Assembly (NCBI GenBank): GCA_021158405.1 | Contig: JAGGUP010000184.1 | Span: 1-41,940, forward strand | Direction: 5' to 3' | From: Bacteroidales bacterium | Lineage (GTDB): Bacteria; Bacteroidota; Bacteroidia; Bacteroidales; UBA12170 | DNA: 41,940 bases | Shown: in pieces, positions 20,562 to 26,677 of the stretch | Position numbering within the stretch: the first letter of the stretch is position 1 | Layout: each line of letters starts with the position of its first letter | Notes under the pieces: generated by a model | Seen by the model: the letters and a program-made list of their open reading frames with translations, nothing else | What the model was told of the DNA's origin: nothing | Databases searched by the model: none | Program-made: the position numbers and the translations under genes

Positions 20562-21440
20562 TTAATATTCCCACAACGTTTGTTCCATTTCAAATATTTC
20601 GTTTTTTATACGATTTGATTCTAACAAGGCATCCATTCCTAATGCATATTGTGAAATTTCACGGTCGTACACATTCTCTTCCTTATAAACATAAGAATCG
20701 AACAGGCGTTTCCAGAATATATCATCGTAGGTCAATCTTGCGCCACTATTTTTCCTGTTAAACACCAAGGATTTTGCCAAAATAGGTCTGACATCGGGGA
20801 AATAAATCCAGAATAAAGTTTGTTCCCTTTTTTCTTGTGTTTCAGAATCAATAAACTCACGCACAGGACCCAGACCTAAAATACGCACCATCATCTGTGA
20901 ACGTTGTTTATCAAAATACCAAACCTCCTTAAGCTTAAGTGTTTTTACTTCACCTTCTTGATAAGCATCTGGAAAAGTAATTTTCTTACCAAGAAACACA
21001 CCATTTTGATCAAATTGATCGATAGAATCAGCTTGTCCTTTTAAACGGGACTCAAGTTCTCTGTAAGTTAAAGGAGTAGTAAATTCATCATCTACTCTAT
21101 CGTCATATGCCGTTAATTCTCCAGAACGTAAGGCTTCTAAAATAATGGTCATAAAGCTCTTCCATCCTAAATGAGCATTAATGGGATAATAAAATGGCTG
21201 ATTCATTTTTTCGCGAAAATCAATTTTTTGCCAAATTCTTTTTTGATACATTACATCCGCTTGACGCAAAGGAGGATAGGGAACAGGCTTTTTGAACTCC
21301 GCATGAATTTCTTCAAATACATTATCTCTTGGAGTACTAATCGCTCTTTGTACACTACTGCTTGTCAATTGTGCAGAAACAACTGACACACTTAAACTCA
21401 AGGCTAATATGCTAAAAAATTTATAAATACGCTTATCCAT
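20562..21440 (-). CDS. gldN: Type IX secretion / gliding protein GldN (PorN)
   Basis: A 292-residue periplasmic component with a signal peptide (MDKRIYKFFSILALSLSVSV, cut after VSAQ). The remainder shows the GldN pattern: REKMNQPFYYPINAHLG-type segment near residue 95, then a series of strands including GVFLGKKITFPDAYQ, VKTLKLKEVWYFDKQRS and RILGLGPVREF. GldN/PorN forms rings with GldK/PorK on the periplasmic face of the outer membrane. It is the last gene of the operon, 11 bp after gldM, with a strong terminator behind it. Length and position are as expected. Confidence 0.93.
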   Translation of the reverse strand: MDKRIYKFFSILALSLSVSVVSAQLTSSSVQRAISTPRDNVFEEIHAEFKKPVPYPPLRQADVMYQKRIWQKIDFREKMNQPFYYPINAHLGWKSFMTIILEALRSGELTAYDDRVDDEFTTPLTYRELESRLKGQADSIDQFDQNGVFLGKKITFPDAYQEGEVKTLKLKEVWYFDKQRSQMMVRILGLGPVREFIDSETQEKREQTLFWIYFPDVRPILAKSLVFNRKNSGARLTYDDIFWKRLFDSYVYKEENVYDREISQYALGMDALLESNRIKNEIFEMEQTLWEY

Positions 21441-21451
21441 AATTTCTATTT

Positions 21452-23101
21452 TTATCTTAAAGTAAGCACTAAAGCCGGGACTTTTCTATCGCCGGTAGGG
21501 CCTTTTACTTTTATATTCTTAAACACAATATCCGAACCTCGACGAGCATCTCGGATATAGCTTTCCATTTCTGTAGTTAGCTTTGACCCTGTTGAGAATA
21601 AATCGTAGGATTCTCCGTTGACTTTATAAGCTGTCATACTAAATGCATTTACTTCAAATGGATATTCGAAGTTAACAAATTCAGGCAGCTGACACATTAA
21701 ATAGGGGTTAGTTAATATTTCTCCTTTTAAGATGTCTCCATCTTCATTCATTCCTCTAACCAGCACATCCGGATCGGGCAATTGTTTTAAGCGGAATACC
21801 TGCACTCCTAATTTTTTTGTACGCACTTTATTTTCATCCAAGGCATACACTGTTATTGTGAGTTGATTTGTTGAAAGTGTATTTCTACCTAAACCCGAAA
21901 CAACATATCCTTCATCCGTTTTTTTAATTTGACCAGTGGTAATCGCATAATCCAATCGATGGTCTGGAATTCCAGAGGCAGAAATGCGTATAGGATTATC
22001 AACGCCCCTATAAAAAACATTCATTTTGGAGGCAGACACATTAGCAGAAGGCTCAGCCACAGTAAAACTACTGGCAAACGGGTAAGATTGTTGTTCTCCC
22101 GTAGGATCTTTTATAATAATCCGACCTGAAAATGTATATTCTTTAGGTGTTAAATTTCGTGTGGGTAATTTTAAATGAACCATCCCGTTTTCACCTAAAA
22201 GCTTGGTGGAAGTTGAACTAAATTCATCATGCCATTCACTTGTGCCCATTCTAAATTCAACCGTGGGATTATTTTTCTCATCCACAGCAGCAACAAAAAT
22301 CTCAGCTTTATATTCATCGCCTTGGAAAACGTAAGCGGAATTAGCGAGTATCTTGGCCTCGATTTTACTGAATTTAAAGTCTTTAGCAGATATATCCTGA
22401 GCTAAATAATTAACAATATCAAATTCAGCATTTTTTGCTTCCGCTAAAATCTTATTGATAATGGTAACATCGGCCGCCAAAATAGTATGATAAAAATTAT
22501 AATAAACCCAGTCTTTGGTAAAGCTTCCATCGGTATTAATAAATTTACCTTTTGTATTTAGTCCAATATTAAAATAGGAACGCCTGTCTTCCGGTATAAA
22601 GGAAAGTAAATCTTTGCGGTATTTCTCGATTTTCTCTTGGAGTTCATATCCTTCCCCTTTATGAGTTTCAATTCCTACCAAATAATGGGTAGGTTTAGAG
22701 AAATTATCAATTTGTTTGAGATCACGTAAGGTAATCTTCTTTACTGAGTCGTATGAAATACCATATTTACCGCCTATTTTTATCCCTTCTGTATGGATAA
22801 TTGTATTGATTTTTACGCTATCGAGATAATTAGTGAAATTGGCAGAAATTTCTCGAACTGCTTTTGCTTTATCCCAGAAAGGTTCTACTTTTTTCTGATT
22901 TAAATCGTATTGTTTTTCAAATTCGTCATATAAACTATTCACTTTATTGGTGAAATTTACATTTGTCGATACTAAACTTTCGTTTACAACCTTAAATGCT
23001 TCTAAAATCTCTTTGGATACATTTAGCGCTAACATGGCAGTTAGTACCAAATACATCATTGCAATCATTTTCTGCCGTGGCGTTTCTTTAAATCCAGCCA
23101 T
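21452..23101 (-). CDS. gldM: Type IX secretion / gliding motor protein GldM (PorM)
   Basis: A 549-residue protein anchored by one N-terminal membrane helix (about residues 12-30: KMIAMMYLVLTAMLALNVS). The segment TPRQKMIAMMYLVLTAML is highly typical of GldM. The large periplasmic part should contain the D1-D4 domains that form a dimeric shaft; the C-terminal part (about 310-549) shows Ig-like strand-rich sequence. GldM pairs with GldL to make the proton-driven motor of the type IX secretion system and gliding machinery. It lies 32 bp downstream of gldL. It is slightly longer than the roughly 515 residues usual in characterised members. Confidence 0.96.
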   Translation of the reverse strand: MAGFKETPRQKMIAMMYLVLTAMLALNVSKEILEAFKVVNESLVSTNVNFTNKVNSLYDEFEKQYDLNQKKVEPFWDKAKAVREISANFTNYLDSVKINTIIHTEGIKIGGKYGISYDSVKKITLRDLKQIDNFSKPTHYLVGIETHKGEGYELQEKIEKYRKDLLSFIPEDRRSYFNIGLNTKGKFINTDGSFTKDWVYYNFYHTILAADVTIINKILAEAKNAEFDIVNYLAQDISAKDFKFSKIEAKILANSAYVFQGDEYKAEIFVAAVDEKNNPTVEFRMGTSEWHDEFSSTSTKLLGENGMVHLKLPTRNLTPKEYTFSGRIIIKDPTGEQQSYPFASSFTVAEPSANVSASKMNVFYRGVDNPIRISASGIPDHRLDYAITTGQIKKTDEGYVVSGLGRNTLSTNQLTITVYALDENKVRTKKLGVQVFRLKQLPDPDVLVRGMNEDGDILKGEILTNPYLMCQLPEFVNFEYPFEVNAFSMTAYKVNGESYDLFSTGSKLTTEMESYIRDARRGSDIVFKNIKVKGPTGDRKVPALVLTLR

Positions 23102-23133: not shown

Positions 23134-24183
23134 TTAAGCTCGTGGAGTAACATTCATTGCTGATAACATATTACCATACACTTTATTTAAGGCTTCTACA
23201 TTCTCAGCTAATGATTGAACACCTTTTTGATATTGACTTGTAGTTTCAATTGAACTATTCAGATTATCTAAGAATTGATTCAAGGAATCCTGCACTTTTA
23301 CCGATGATTTAATTTGCTCATTGTTTGATTGCAGTTGCAATTCATAAACAGCATTCAAGGCTGTAAGATTATAGGAAATTTTTTGCACTTCTTCGTTATA
23401 ACGAGTCCCATCAACTCCGGCAAAATTAAGCGATTCGGCTGATTGACGCATTATTGCAATAGACTTCTTATACTCGTCACTCAGTAAGCTAGCTGTTTGT
23501 GCTGCTTCTATTACTTTCGAAGAAAATTCATTAGAAGCATTCAAATCGACATTCATATTGTCAGCCGCTTTAGCATAAACGGATGTCAAAGAAGAAGCTG
23601 CCGCACTTGCTCCAGAAATATTTGAATGGTACTGCTCTGTAACTTCTATATCACGATCCAGAACCTGATTTACTTTTTTATACGAAGACGTTAATTGGCT
23701 AACTGAGCTACTTGCATTTTTAACATTTTCTGCAAAAACAGTATTTGCTTCCACAGCATCTGTCAACTGATTCATATTTCCTGCAGATGTGCTTAGATTC
23801 CGCAGACCGGCACCTAAACTTTCAATCAATTCACTATCAATATTGGCTTCGGCCAATAAACCATCCAGTTGTTTTGTGACTGACTTCTCATCTCCTAAAT
23901 CATTATCCATAAAATCATCCTCTACAGAACCAACATTGTGGTATATTCCAGCTAACTCGGGATAAACCAAACTCCAATCGGGTTCCACATGAGGTGTTTC
24001 AAAAGCAGAGAAAAAGAAAATGATAGCTTCTGTTGTTAAACCTACCATTAGCATTTCATCTGCATAGGGAATATGAGTAATCTTAAATAAAGCGCCCATA
24101 ATTACAATGGCTGCACCAATACCATATAGTTTGGCCATAAAATTTTTAAATCCCCTGCTTTTGGTAAGTTGACTAATATTCAT
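23134..24183 (-). CDS. gldL: Type IX secretion / gliding motor protein GldL (PorL), long heptad-repeat tail
   Basis: A 349-residue inner-membrane protein. Two membrane helices (about 18-36 and 43-61) are followed by FETPHVEPDWSLVYPEL, a GldL signature. TM1 and TM2 hold the proton-path residues of the GldLM motor; Glu52 in TM2 (LTTEAIIFFF) is the likely conserved acidic residue. The cytoplasmic tail (about 100-349) is long and contains five copies of [FY]x3[VI]x2[AIL]x6Lx3Y starting at residues 150, 185, 220, 262 and 318. Their offsets of 35, 35, 42 and 56 are all multiples of seven. The F. johnsoniae protein is recalled as about 215 residues, so this one is extended. Confidence 0.95.
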   Translation of the reverse strand: MNISQLTKSRGFKNFMAKLYGIGAAIVIMGALFKITHIPYADEMLMVGLTTEAIIFFFSAFETPHVEPDWSLVYPELAGIYHNVGSVEDDFMDNDLGDEKSVTKQLDGLLAEANIDSELIESLGAGLRNLSTSAGNMNQLTDAVEANTVFAENVKNASSSVSQLTSSYKKVNQVLDRDIEVTEQYHSNISGASAAASSLTSVYAKAADNMNVDLNASNEFSSKVIEAAQTASLLSDEYKKSIAIMRQSAESLNFAGVDGTRYNEEVQKISYNLTALNAVYELQLQSNNEQIKSSVKVQDSLNQFLDNLNSSIETTSQYQKGVQSLAENVEALNKVYGNMLSAMNVTPRA

Positions 24184-24219: not shown

Positions 24220-25659
24220 TTATCTATAAACTTCAGAGGCACGTTTAGAGTCGCCTTCCATACGTCCCAAATAAGTTTGCATACATCTAAATCCAATATA
24301 AGATTTTGCAGTATCCTGATATTCATATTGACGAGTAGATACTTGCAAAAAATAGCCAATATCTTTCCAACTACCTCCACGAATAACTTTTTTCTTCATT
24401 TGAGGAGGATCGTTTTCTTTTGCATTGTATTCATAATCAGGATTCAAATCCCAAGAAAAATTATAAGAGGATTCATCATAAGCACTAAGCGTCCATTCAG
24501 ATACGTTTCCTGCCATATCATATAAGCCCCAATCATTGGCTGGATAATGAGCAACAACCACCGTTTGCATTCCACCATCAGCCACATAGTTTCCTCTCTG
24601 CGGTTTAAAATTTGCTAGAAAACAACCTTGATCGTTTGTTAAATAAGGTCCACCCCAAGGATAAGGATTCATTTCCCAACCACCCCGAGCTGCCCATTCC
24701 CATTCCACCTCAGTAGGTAAACGGAATTCATTAACAGCTACTTGTCCTTTACTCGCTAAATGAGCGTTCATTAATTCTGTTCGCCAATAAGAAAAAGCTT
24801 TGGCTTGTTTCCAATTAACACCTACCACAGGATAATTATCATAGGTAGGATGCCAGAAATAATTTTTCGCCATAGGATCGTTATATGAATAGGCAAAATC
24901 GTGTATCCAGGAAAGTGTATCCGGATATATATTGATTGCTTCTCTTCTGATAAAAACACTTCTATCCTGATAACCTTGAGGTCTGTTTGAAAATCCAGCA
25001 AGTTCACTCTTCATGTCTGAGCTTGCAATGGCATATCCACTATTGTCTTGAGCATATTCTTTCCTTGACGCGGCTATAAGATCTATCCAATAATATTCGT
25101 AAACTAATTTTCTTGAATCAATTTGTCTTCTATTGAAAAAACGCTCATTGGCTGGAATAAACATTTCTTCAAGCAATCTTTGGGCATTCGGATCTGGATT
25201 TTTCTGATCCACTGCATCCGTCAAATTCCAATTTAATTTTGTTTCCCAATTGATAGGTCGTGTAGCTAATTCATCCTCGGTAATTACATCAGGATCATCA
25301 TACTTATAGAGCCGTTTATATTGTTTTGCTAATTCAAAACTTTTCTCTGCAATGAGTGTGCGAGCTATAGAGTCACGCACCCAGTTCACAAATTGGCGAT
25401 ATTCATTATTGGTAATTTCCGTTTCGTCGATATAAAAAGACTGTACAGAAACTGTTTTTGGTTCCGTAACTTGAGCATAAGGAATATCTTGATCGCCGAC
25501 TCCTATAGTAAAAGATCCTAATGGAACAAATGCCATACCATAAGGTGCTGAAGGATAAAAAGTAGCTCTTTTTTGGACGCCAATTAGTTCACCATTGCCA
25601 GAATTTTTACAAGCTGAAAAAGCAAGTAATACCGACAAAAAAATAAATATTTTTTTCAT
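24220..25659 (-). CDS. gldK: Type IX secretion / gliding lipoprotein GldK (PorK)
   Basis: A 479-residue lipoprotein: signal [17 protein letters not shown] with Cys17 lipidated. The body is a formylglycine-generating-enzyme (SUMF1) fold, shown by MAFVPLGSFTIGV near the start, NNEYRQFVNWV, PVVGVNWKQAKAFSYWR, LPTEVEWEWAARGG, YDMAGNVSEWTL and VIRGGSWKDIG. In GldK this fold is structural, not enzymatic: with GldN it forms the periplasmic ring of the type IX secretion system. The gene is 36 bp upstream of gldL. Two TAnnTTTG elements precede it, so it may be transcribed separately from porP. Confidence 0.96.
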   Translation of the reverse strand: MKKIFIFLSVLLAFSACKNSGNGELIGVQKRATFYPSAPYGMAFVPLGSFTIGVGDQDIPYAQVTEPKTVSVQSFYIDETEITNNEYRQFVNWVRDSIARTLIAEKSFELAKQYKRLYKYDDPDVITEDELATRPINWETKLNWNLTDAVDQKNPDPNAQRLLEEMFIPANERFFNRRQIDSRKLVYEYYWIDLIAASRKEYAQDNSGYAIASSDMKSELAGFSNRPQGYQDRSVFIRREAINIYPDTLSWIHDFAYSYNDPMAKNYFWHPTYDNYPVVGVNWKQAKAFSYWRTELMNAHLASKGQVAVNEFRLPTEVEWEWAARGGWEMNPYPWGGPYLTNDQGCFLANFKPQRGNYVADGGMQTVVVAHYPANDWGLYDMAGNVSEWTLSAYDESSYNFSWDLNPDYEYNAKENDPPQMKKKVIRGGSWKDIGYFLQVSTRQYEYQDTAKSYIGFRCMQTYLGRMEGDSKRASEVYR

Positions 25660-25729: not shown

Positions 25730-25755
25730 TAATGTTTCTATATAATGTTTCTATA
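25730..25755. repeat. Perfect 13-bp tandem duplication across the porP stop
   Basis: TAATGTTTCTATA occurs twice back to back (25730-25742 and 25743-25755). On the minus strand the upstream copy supplies the porP TAG (25751-25753); the second copy supplies another TAG 13 bp later. Confidence 0.93.
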
Positions 25756-26677
25756 AATACCTTGTATTTTTATAATTCTTCTTCCCTTTCACTACTTCAA
25801 TTAAAAATCGATATCCAAGCATCAATTCATGAGATCCTCCGCTTCTTAATGATGTCGTATTAATTTCATAAGCATAACTTGCCGTAAACTGCTTATAATA
25901 GATACCTGCCAATAGTCCAATTCCACTTTGATGTCTATAAGTAACGCCGCCCCAAAACTTTTTATTGTATTCACCAATCATTCCTAGGTTAATTTGTATG
26001 GGAGCTCCTGCAGTATAGACCGCCATGGCGGAAGAATGAAAAATTATGTGAGGGATTTGTCTAAGTGCGAAAAAATAACCGCCATGCAAATAAACATTAC
26101 GTTTTAAAGAAGTGGCTCCGCCTTCAATAATCATTTTGCCCTGATTAATTTGAGTGGAGGAAAGACCGATATAGTAATGTCCTTTTTCCTCATAAAACAC
26201 ACCCAAATCGATATTAAAAATCATACCGCTTTCATCATCTGGACCTTGTAAAAGAGGATCATTCTGAACATTAAAATAGGAATAATTAATGGCTTTATTT
26301 ATCAATCCAAGGCTTAATCCTAAACTTAATTCACCTTGCCAAAAGTCCTTTCGATAAGCATAAGCCAATTTCAAACCCGTAGATTTAAATGCTCCAATTT
26401 GATCGTTGATAATTGTTCCTCCTACACCTCCTTTTAAAAAACTAATAGGTGCATGAATATTGACTAAGAATGTTTCCGGCGCACCTGATAAACCCACCCA
26501 TTGCTGCCTCATTAATCCATTTAATTGTATGTTTGGTTGATTCCCATTTACAGCAGGATTAAAAAGGGTTTGTTGTAACATAAAATGCGTAAATGACTGT
26601 TCCTGTTGGGCTTTCACTTCCTCAACCAAAATAATAAAACCAATAGAAAAAGTGATTATCTTAAACCATTTAACCAT
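25751..26677 (-). CDS. porP: PorP/SprF-family type IX secretion membrane protein
   Basis: A 308-residue outer-membrane barrel with a signal peptide ending in EVKAQ. QEQSFTHFMLQQTLFNPAVNG (residues 25-45) is the diagnostic start of the family. It is followed by repeated amphipathic strands and RQQWVGLSGAPETFLVNIHA. PorP/SprF proteins work with PorK/PorE in anchoring the type IX apparatus or in exporting particular substrates such as the SprB adhesin. The gene is upstream of gldK on the same strand, the standard order porP-K-L-M-N of Bacteroidales. A 13-bp tandem duplication covers its stop. Confidence 0.93.
   Translation of the reverse strand: MVKWFKIITFSIGFIILVEEVKAQQEQSFTHFMLQQTLFNPAVNGNQPNIQLNGLMRQQWVGLSGAPETFLVNIHAPISFLKGGVGGTIINDQIGAFKSTGLKLAYAYRKDFWQGELSLGLSLGLINKAINYSYFNVQNDPLLQGPDDESGMIFNIDLGVFYEEKGHYYIGLSSTQINQGKMIIEGGATSLKRNVYLHGGYFFALRQIPHIIFHSSAMAVYTAGAPIQINLGMIGEYNKKFWGGVTYRHQSGIGLLAGIYYKQFTASYAYEINTTSLRSGGSHELMLGYRFLIEVVKGKKNYKNTRYL

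Follow-up and report, generated by a model that had tools for sequence, protein, structure and literature searches.

The tail of the GldL motor protein studied here is very probably a coiled coil whose length evolves in coil steps, mostly of 7 or 11 residues across the phylum, with a conserved base at one end and a conserved tip at the other. The gene lies in a 41,940-nucleotide stretch of Bacteroidales DNA, hereafter the window, and its tail, as read from the sequence, has three 35-residue units in tandem (R1-R3), specific to its clade, ahead of a pair of repeats (R4-R5) found phylum-wide. We give a probability of about 60% to the reading in which this tail would be a variable-length coiled-coil spacer that evolves in coil steps and forms a parallel pentameric rod with a hinge, any step involving PorX being left out of the estimate. 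GldL as such was already known; the regularity of its tail is a clear one, namely length evolution in coil steps with an internal control.

A gldL gene in an intact motor operon

GldL was identified by its profile matches (Table 1), and the Pfam GldL_N model spans residues 19-79 alone, so that the tail has no Pfam family of its own. The porP-gldK-L-M-N operon is intact in the window and, as the PorP/SprF, GldK, GldM and GldN neighbours each scored above their family cut-offs, it is an ordinary T9SS motor operon. GldL homologues form a pentamer around a GldM dimer (PMC9389320). With the known GldL/PorL proteins (TIGR03513; PDB 6YS8, 7SAU, 7SAX, 7SAZ and 7SAT) the window protein shares the membrane domain, the TM2 glutamate (E52, invariant across 63 homologues), the operon, the R4-R5 core and the YGxML tip.

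GldL sequences were taken from 80 related Bacteroidales contigs, from genomes sampled evenly over the phylum, from an order-level set and from three later sets of relatives. Distances were measured between four anchor residues: the glutamate E52 of TM2 (E), A113 within the motif LDxMLxxA (B), and the tyrosines Y280 of R4 (C) and Y336 of R5 (D). Divergent PorL-like and Chitinophaga-like members, on which regular-expression anchors failed, do not enter the distance statistics; B was afterwards placed with an HMM. Two individual cases were recorded during collection. In a metagenome bin (L228, G448:C164), one TAA interrupts the gldL frame, which makes it a pseudogene or an assembly error. The GMC4.concoct.313 bin holds two long-type gldL genes on separate contigs (L045 and L061), either paralogues or a sign of a mixed bin.

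Table 1. Features of the gldL region, in window coordinates
Feature	Position	Strand	Evidence
PorP/SprF family protein	25751..26677	-	TIGR03519
GldK	24220..25659	-	TIGR03525
GldL/PorL, 349 aa, ATG start	23134..24183	-	TIGR03513, 228.4 bits vs curated cut-off 68.3; PF22827 GldL_N
GldM, motor partner	21452..23101	-	TIGR03517, 306.5 bits
GldN	20562..21440	-	TIGR03523
Transmembrane motor domain, residues 19-79, with TM2 glutamate E52	23947..24129	-	PF22827; homologue conservation
Linker, about residues 80-101, flexible	23881..23946	-	Pro/Gly-rich; free length in homologues; low pLDDT
B block, conserved tail base, residues 102-148	23740..23880	-	fixed 55 residues from A113 to R1 tyrosine
R1, residues 150-168, 35-residue array unit	23680..23736	-	pattern; profile comparison
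R2, residues 185-203	23575..23631	-	pattern; profile comparison
R3, residues 220-238	23470..23526	-	pattern; profile comparison
Probable hinge, residues 252-258, then G259	23410..23430	-	AlphaFold2 breaks; G259 conservation
R4, residues 262-280, phylum-wide core repeat	23344..23400	-	pattern; homologues; profile comparison
R5, residues 318-336, phylum-wide core repeat	23176..23232	-	pattern; homologues; profile comparison
Tip VYGNMLSAM, residues 335-343	23155..23181	-	conservation; alignment to P. gingivalis PorL; PMC5005315

Five repeats of two kinds

A preliminary description of the window had read five pattern segments in the tail, with hydrophobic or aromatic core positions and starts 35, 35, 42 and 56 residues apart. 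Positions (Table 1) and spacings proved exact in the translated reading frame, 30/30 core positions conformed, and the pattern had no sixth site in the protein. When the tail was shuffled 100,000 times, one match arose in 34 shuffles and two matches in 0. Because the pattern had been fitted post hoc, independent proof had to come from the spacing kept in homologues, which we regard as stronger than the shuffles. Indeed, 64 homologues shared the exact window layout without exception: 55 residues from B to R1, 35 and 35 between the units of the array, 42 from R3 to R4 and 56 from R4 to R5. Column autocorrelation over 63 homologues gave 35, 168, 56, 70, 133, 98 and 154 as its best seven offsets, each a multiple of 7.

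The five repeats had been taken as one set, and on this point the description needed correction. Profile comparison of their columns found R1, R2 and R3 mutually alike (z 4.5-5.5) and R4 like R5 (z 6.7), the likeness between the two groups being weaker, which ruled out a single uniform five-repeat family. The R4-R5 core ends in [VI]YGNMLSAM.

Other layouts were found among the homologues. One heptad was missing between R1 and R2 in 16-17 of them (28 residues vs 35), and a long type (n = 16) had an R4-R5 interval of 105 vs 56, that is, 49 additional residues. The Flavobacterium-type GldL (215 aa) has the core only, without the R array, with 55 residues from B to C and 42 from C to D. The window tail was rightly said to be longer than this type: two conserved anchors lie 223 residues apart in it and 97 in the Flavobacterium type, a difference of 126 (18 x 7), and the window protein adds the three 35-residue repeats. 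The Cytophagia type has a B to C distance of 93, exceeding that of Flavobacterium by 38 (5 x 7 + 3). The tail can also shrink, since one family of short GldL proteins (L172 and L229-L232; 204-238 aa), in which the B block and R1 hardly match, has kept the R5 core.

Periodicity and composition of the tail

Over the tail as a whole, hydrophobicity showed its strongest period at 3.495-3.50 residues. In an average over 64 homologues, the 3.5-residue period kept a nearly constant phase (roughly -1 to +45 degrees) for about 27 heptads, all the way from about residue 157 to the C-terminus. Hydrophobic residues made up 80% of position a and 68% of position d; charge was carried by 0% of the residues at position a, 2% at e, 7% at d and 12% at g, as against 34-46% at b, c and f. 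Prolines were limited to 2 in about 29,000 residues in the two helical stretches of the homologues, as against 10% in the linker, where glycine reached 7.6%. The locked phase, the scarcity of proline and the nearly uncharged a, d and e positions together argue for a coiled coil. The proposal of a modular heptad coiled coil thus held well, with modular repeats, a heptad register and a constant 3.5-residue phase.

The number of helices in such a coil is fixed by nothing in the sequence, which leaves room for a lower-order coiled coil, a dimer or trimer within or between motors, that would cluster or anchor GldLM units. The low charge at e and g, where the residues are small, suggests a broad buried face, to be expected of more than two or three helices and better suited to at least four than to a dimer; hence, we regard a coil of lower order as rather improbable.

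Length changes in coil steps

We counted length changes on a tree from conserved blocks and scanned moduli from 2 to 16. The R4-R5 interval was 42, 49, 56, 70 or 105 in 213/222 homologues, with 43, 44, 52, 59 and 66 as exceptions in a few. Among the 12 changes in this C to D interval, 7 were multiples of 7 (expected 1.7, P = 5e-4, tree-counted changes being taken as independent on a quick tree, as for all P values given here); of all the moduli scanned for this interval, 7 alone was significant. The E to B linker showed no preferred modulus among 102 length changes on the tree and is a good internal control for the step preference.

For B to C, two moduli stood out in the first set, 7 (P = 0.013) and also 11 (P = 0.003), which had not been expected. 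As modulus 11 had been found by looking, more relatives were fetched and the count was repeated on the new sequences alone. For the sister Bacteroidales lineages, 10/20 changes were then multiples of 11 (expected 1.8, P = 3e-6), the new sequences belonging to the same families as the earlier ones; a member of the series absent before, 119, appeared among them. In total, 16/34 changes in the sister lineages were multiples of 11 (P = 1e-8), and in the window clade with Flavobacteriia 5/7 were multiples of 7 (P = 0.001). This excluded a heptad rule for the entire tail phylum-wide, B to C following 7 in some lineages only and 11 in the sisters. Besides 11s, the sister lineages showed steps of 7, 18, 4 and 15, and in some lineages the steps were neither 7 nor 11.

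Differences between nearest relatives were mostly 7, 11, 18, 4, 15, 22 or 33 residues. The periodicities that coiled coils accept are 7/2, 11/3, 18/5 and 15/4 (PMC4786415). The period of the variable region climbed from 3.50 to 3.60 as 11s accrued, that of R4-R5 being constant at 3.50 everywhere. Selection would filter insertions and deletions so that core packing stays intact. The preliminary description had foreseen growth in whole heptads, which stood within the window clade and, for R4-R5, throughout the phylum, but failed in the sister lineages with their steps of 11. Length differences other than multiples of 7, which that description had named as an objection, were seen outside the clade, yet in other steps that a coil accepts.

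Recent tandem duplications were found in two tails, one with a 40-residue unit in L284 (about residues 170-330, 23/30 identical), the other with a 65-residue unit in L259 (about residues 183-280, 23/30). These in-frame duplications make duplication a likely route of growth for the GldL tail.

Breaks in the tail and its possible architecture

AlphaFold2 monomer models were obtained for two proteins at low confidence (mean pLDDT 57-59, pTM 0.23-0.24, too low to serve as three-dimensional evidence or for a fold search). For the window protein they gave helices at residues 117-158, 166-251 and 259-343, the second of which spans R2 and R3; residues 159-165 form a low-confidence gap. The 392-aa long-type relative had no such gap, broke at the place equivalent to 252-258 and carried its 49-residue insert as an unbroken extension of the last helix (253-386). 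The stretch near 252-259 is rich in glycine, G259 was conserved in 84% of the homologues, and the distance from the last R unit to R4 took many values across lineages and was not heptad-locked. A register unbroken through the tail, first put forward as a possibility, fits these observations poorly. The tail rod is probably not one continuous helix; the low-confidence models and the sequence point to two long helices divided by a hinge, continuity on either side being suggested by scarce proline and by the long predicted helices. In addition, we noted a phase slip of about 80 degrees at residues 143-157 (about 23713-23757), with a local period near 3.36; it is conserved in several lineages and resembles what a 3-residue discontinuity would produce.

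That the tail consists of separate short helices or a broken repeat solenoid, its heptad spacing being a by-product of 35-residue tandem duplication, seems to us quite improbable. R1-R3 are clearly duplicated, and the recent duplications in L284 and L259 speak in favor of this reading. However, duplication covers the 35/35 spacing and not the intervals of 42, 56 and 105, the single-heptad losses (28 for 35) or the steps of 11 elsewhere. Moreover, the proline/glycine signal between R1, R2 and R3 is nearly nil, and both models, albeit at low confidence, argue the same way, with a single helix across R2-R3 and no 159-165 gap in the long relative.

We favor a cytoplasmic alpha-helical coiled coil composed of the B block as a base, a variable spacer built of repeats, the hinge and a C-terminal helix, R4-R5, tipped by YGNMLSAM. 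The five tails of one GldL pentamer would pack into a parallel rod with a hinge, an arrangement to which we give slightly better than even odds, and the flexible linkers would tether this rod to the membrane ring. With a rise of 0.15 nm per residue, the length would come to about 12.6 nm for the last helix and, for the whole tail in extended form, to as much as 33 nm.

The sequence is compatible with a parallel rod and with an antiparallel hairpin alike. In the latter, the R4-R5 helix would fold back against the R array at 252-258, as happens in chemoreceptors, to give a ten-helix bundle, the hinge forming its tip and the C-terminal motif lying near the membrane. The hinge is conserved, and the helices on its two sides are about equal in the low-confidence model of the window protein (86 and 85 residues; 109 and 134 in that of the long type). 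A very weak, non-significant resemblance to the chemoreceptors 2CH7 and 3JA6 (E 0.39-0.54) goes in the same direction. Length changes in chemoreceptor hairpins are symmetric about the turn. Those of GldL are one-sided: B to C stays at 167 with an R4-R5 interval of either 56 or 105, the last helix thus gaining 49 residues by itself, and Flavobacterium lacks the entire array. A free C-terminal arm would soften this objection, and we consider the hairpin unlikely, though less so than the other alternatives above.

A conserved tip and PorX

The tip is among the most conserved parts of the protein, V335, Y336, G337, N338, M339, L340 and A342 being invariant in 63 homologues. Four PorL-like members (L105, L174, L177 and L178) bear Q/P-rich or charged extensions past it. 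PorL of P. gingivalis aligned without gaps over R4-R5, its LLQAL (279-283) lying opposite MLSAM. PorL lacking the patch 279-298 does not bind PorX in P. gingivalis (PMC5005315), the one species in which the patch was mapped; LLQAL is the beginning of this patch, which reaches past the conserved tip. The cytoplasmic domain of F. johnsoniae GldL binds PorX with an active receiver (PMC10951265). The genome of the window encodes a PorX (NF052313, 802.9 bits) with receiver and PglZ domains. The tip may be a dock for the CheY-like PorX and the tail its arm, a function whose chances we place a little below even. The rod would then act as a spacer that exposes the tip in the cytoplasm and sets its distance from the membrane.

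Relation to known systems

By analogy rather than demonstrated kinship, the closest counterpart of the GldL tail would be ZorA. In ZorAB, the related 5:2 motor of Zorya defence, the ZorA tails form a pentameric cytoplasmic rod that is required for function (PMC11890865). GldL likewise belongs to a 5:2 membrane motor whose outer subunit has a long helical cytoplasmic tail, although its pentameric rod is putative. The five-helix bundle of the ZorA rod emerges right at the base of the membrane complex, whereas in GldL a long linker, flexible to judge from its sequence, comes first; such a linker is unlike a rigid rod that starts directly at the ring and speaks against the rod reading. More tentatively, and with odds clearly against it, one may imagine a ZorA-like rod tuned by lineage in steps of 7 or 11. 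This arm, with a conserved PorX dock at its end, would be a lever by which the type IX rotary motor is worked or regulated from the cytoplasm, and in evolution it would have switched between a left-handed form built of heptads and a near-straight one built of hendecads.

The tail shares Ala/Ser-rich heptads with the chemoreceptor (MCP) bundle, whose length variants come as multiples of seven. Unlike MCPs, GldL has one-sided insertions and deletions and also changes by 11s, and the sequence similarity is not significant.

In the literature surveyed, a repeat-built or step-evolving GldL tail was undescribed, earlier remarks being possible in GldLM structural papers outside the survey. Reviews surveyed assigned no structural role to the cytoplasmic part of GldL/PorL, which can now be divided into a base, a variable spacer, a probable hinge and an invariant tip. 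Through such defined parts, a piece of the motor with an uncertain job becomes accessible to experiment. The tail also offers a clear natural case of a single family in which some lineages grow by heptads and others by hendecads, and for which the adjacent linker is an internal control.

Finally, a different arrangement of motor domains was seen in two other Bacteroidota genomes and not in the window's own. Adjacent ORF pairs of 318-501 aa (L307:1020-2492:- and 3-958:-; L308:277-1779:+ and 1809-2840:+) encode single-chain GldL-GldM-like paralogues, in which two or three GldL_N hairpins (PF22827, motif GALFKIQHWPGAG) are fused to the N-terminal domain of GldM (PF12081), without the coiled-coil tail or the later GldM domains.
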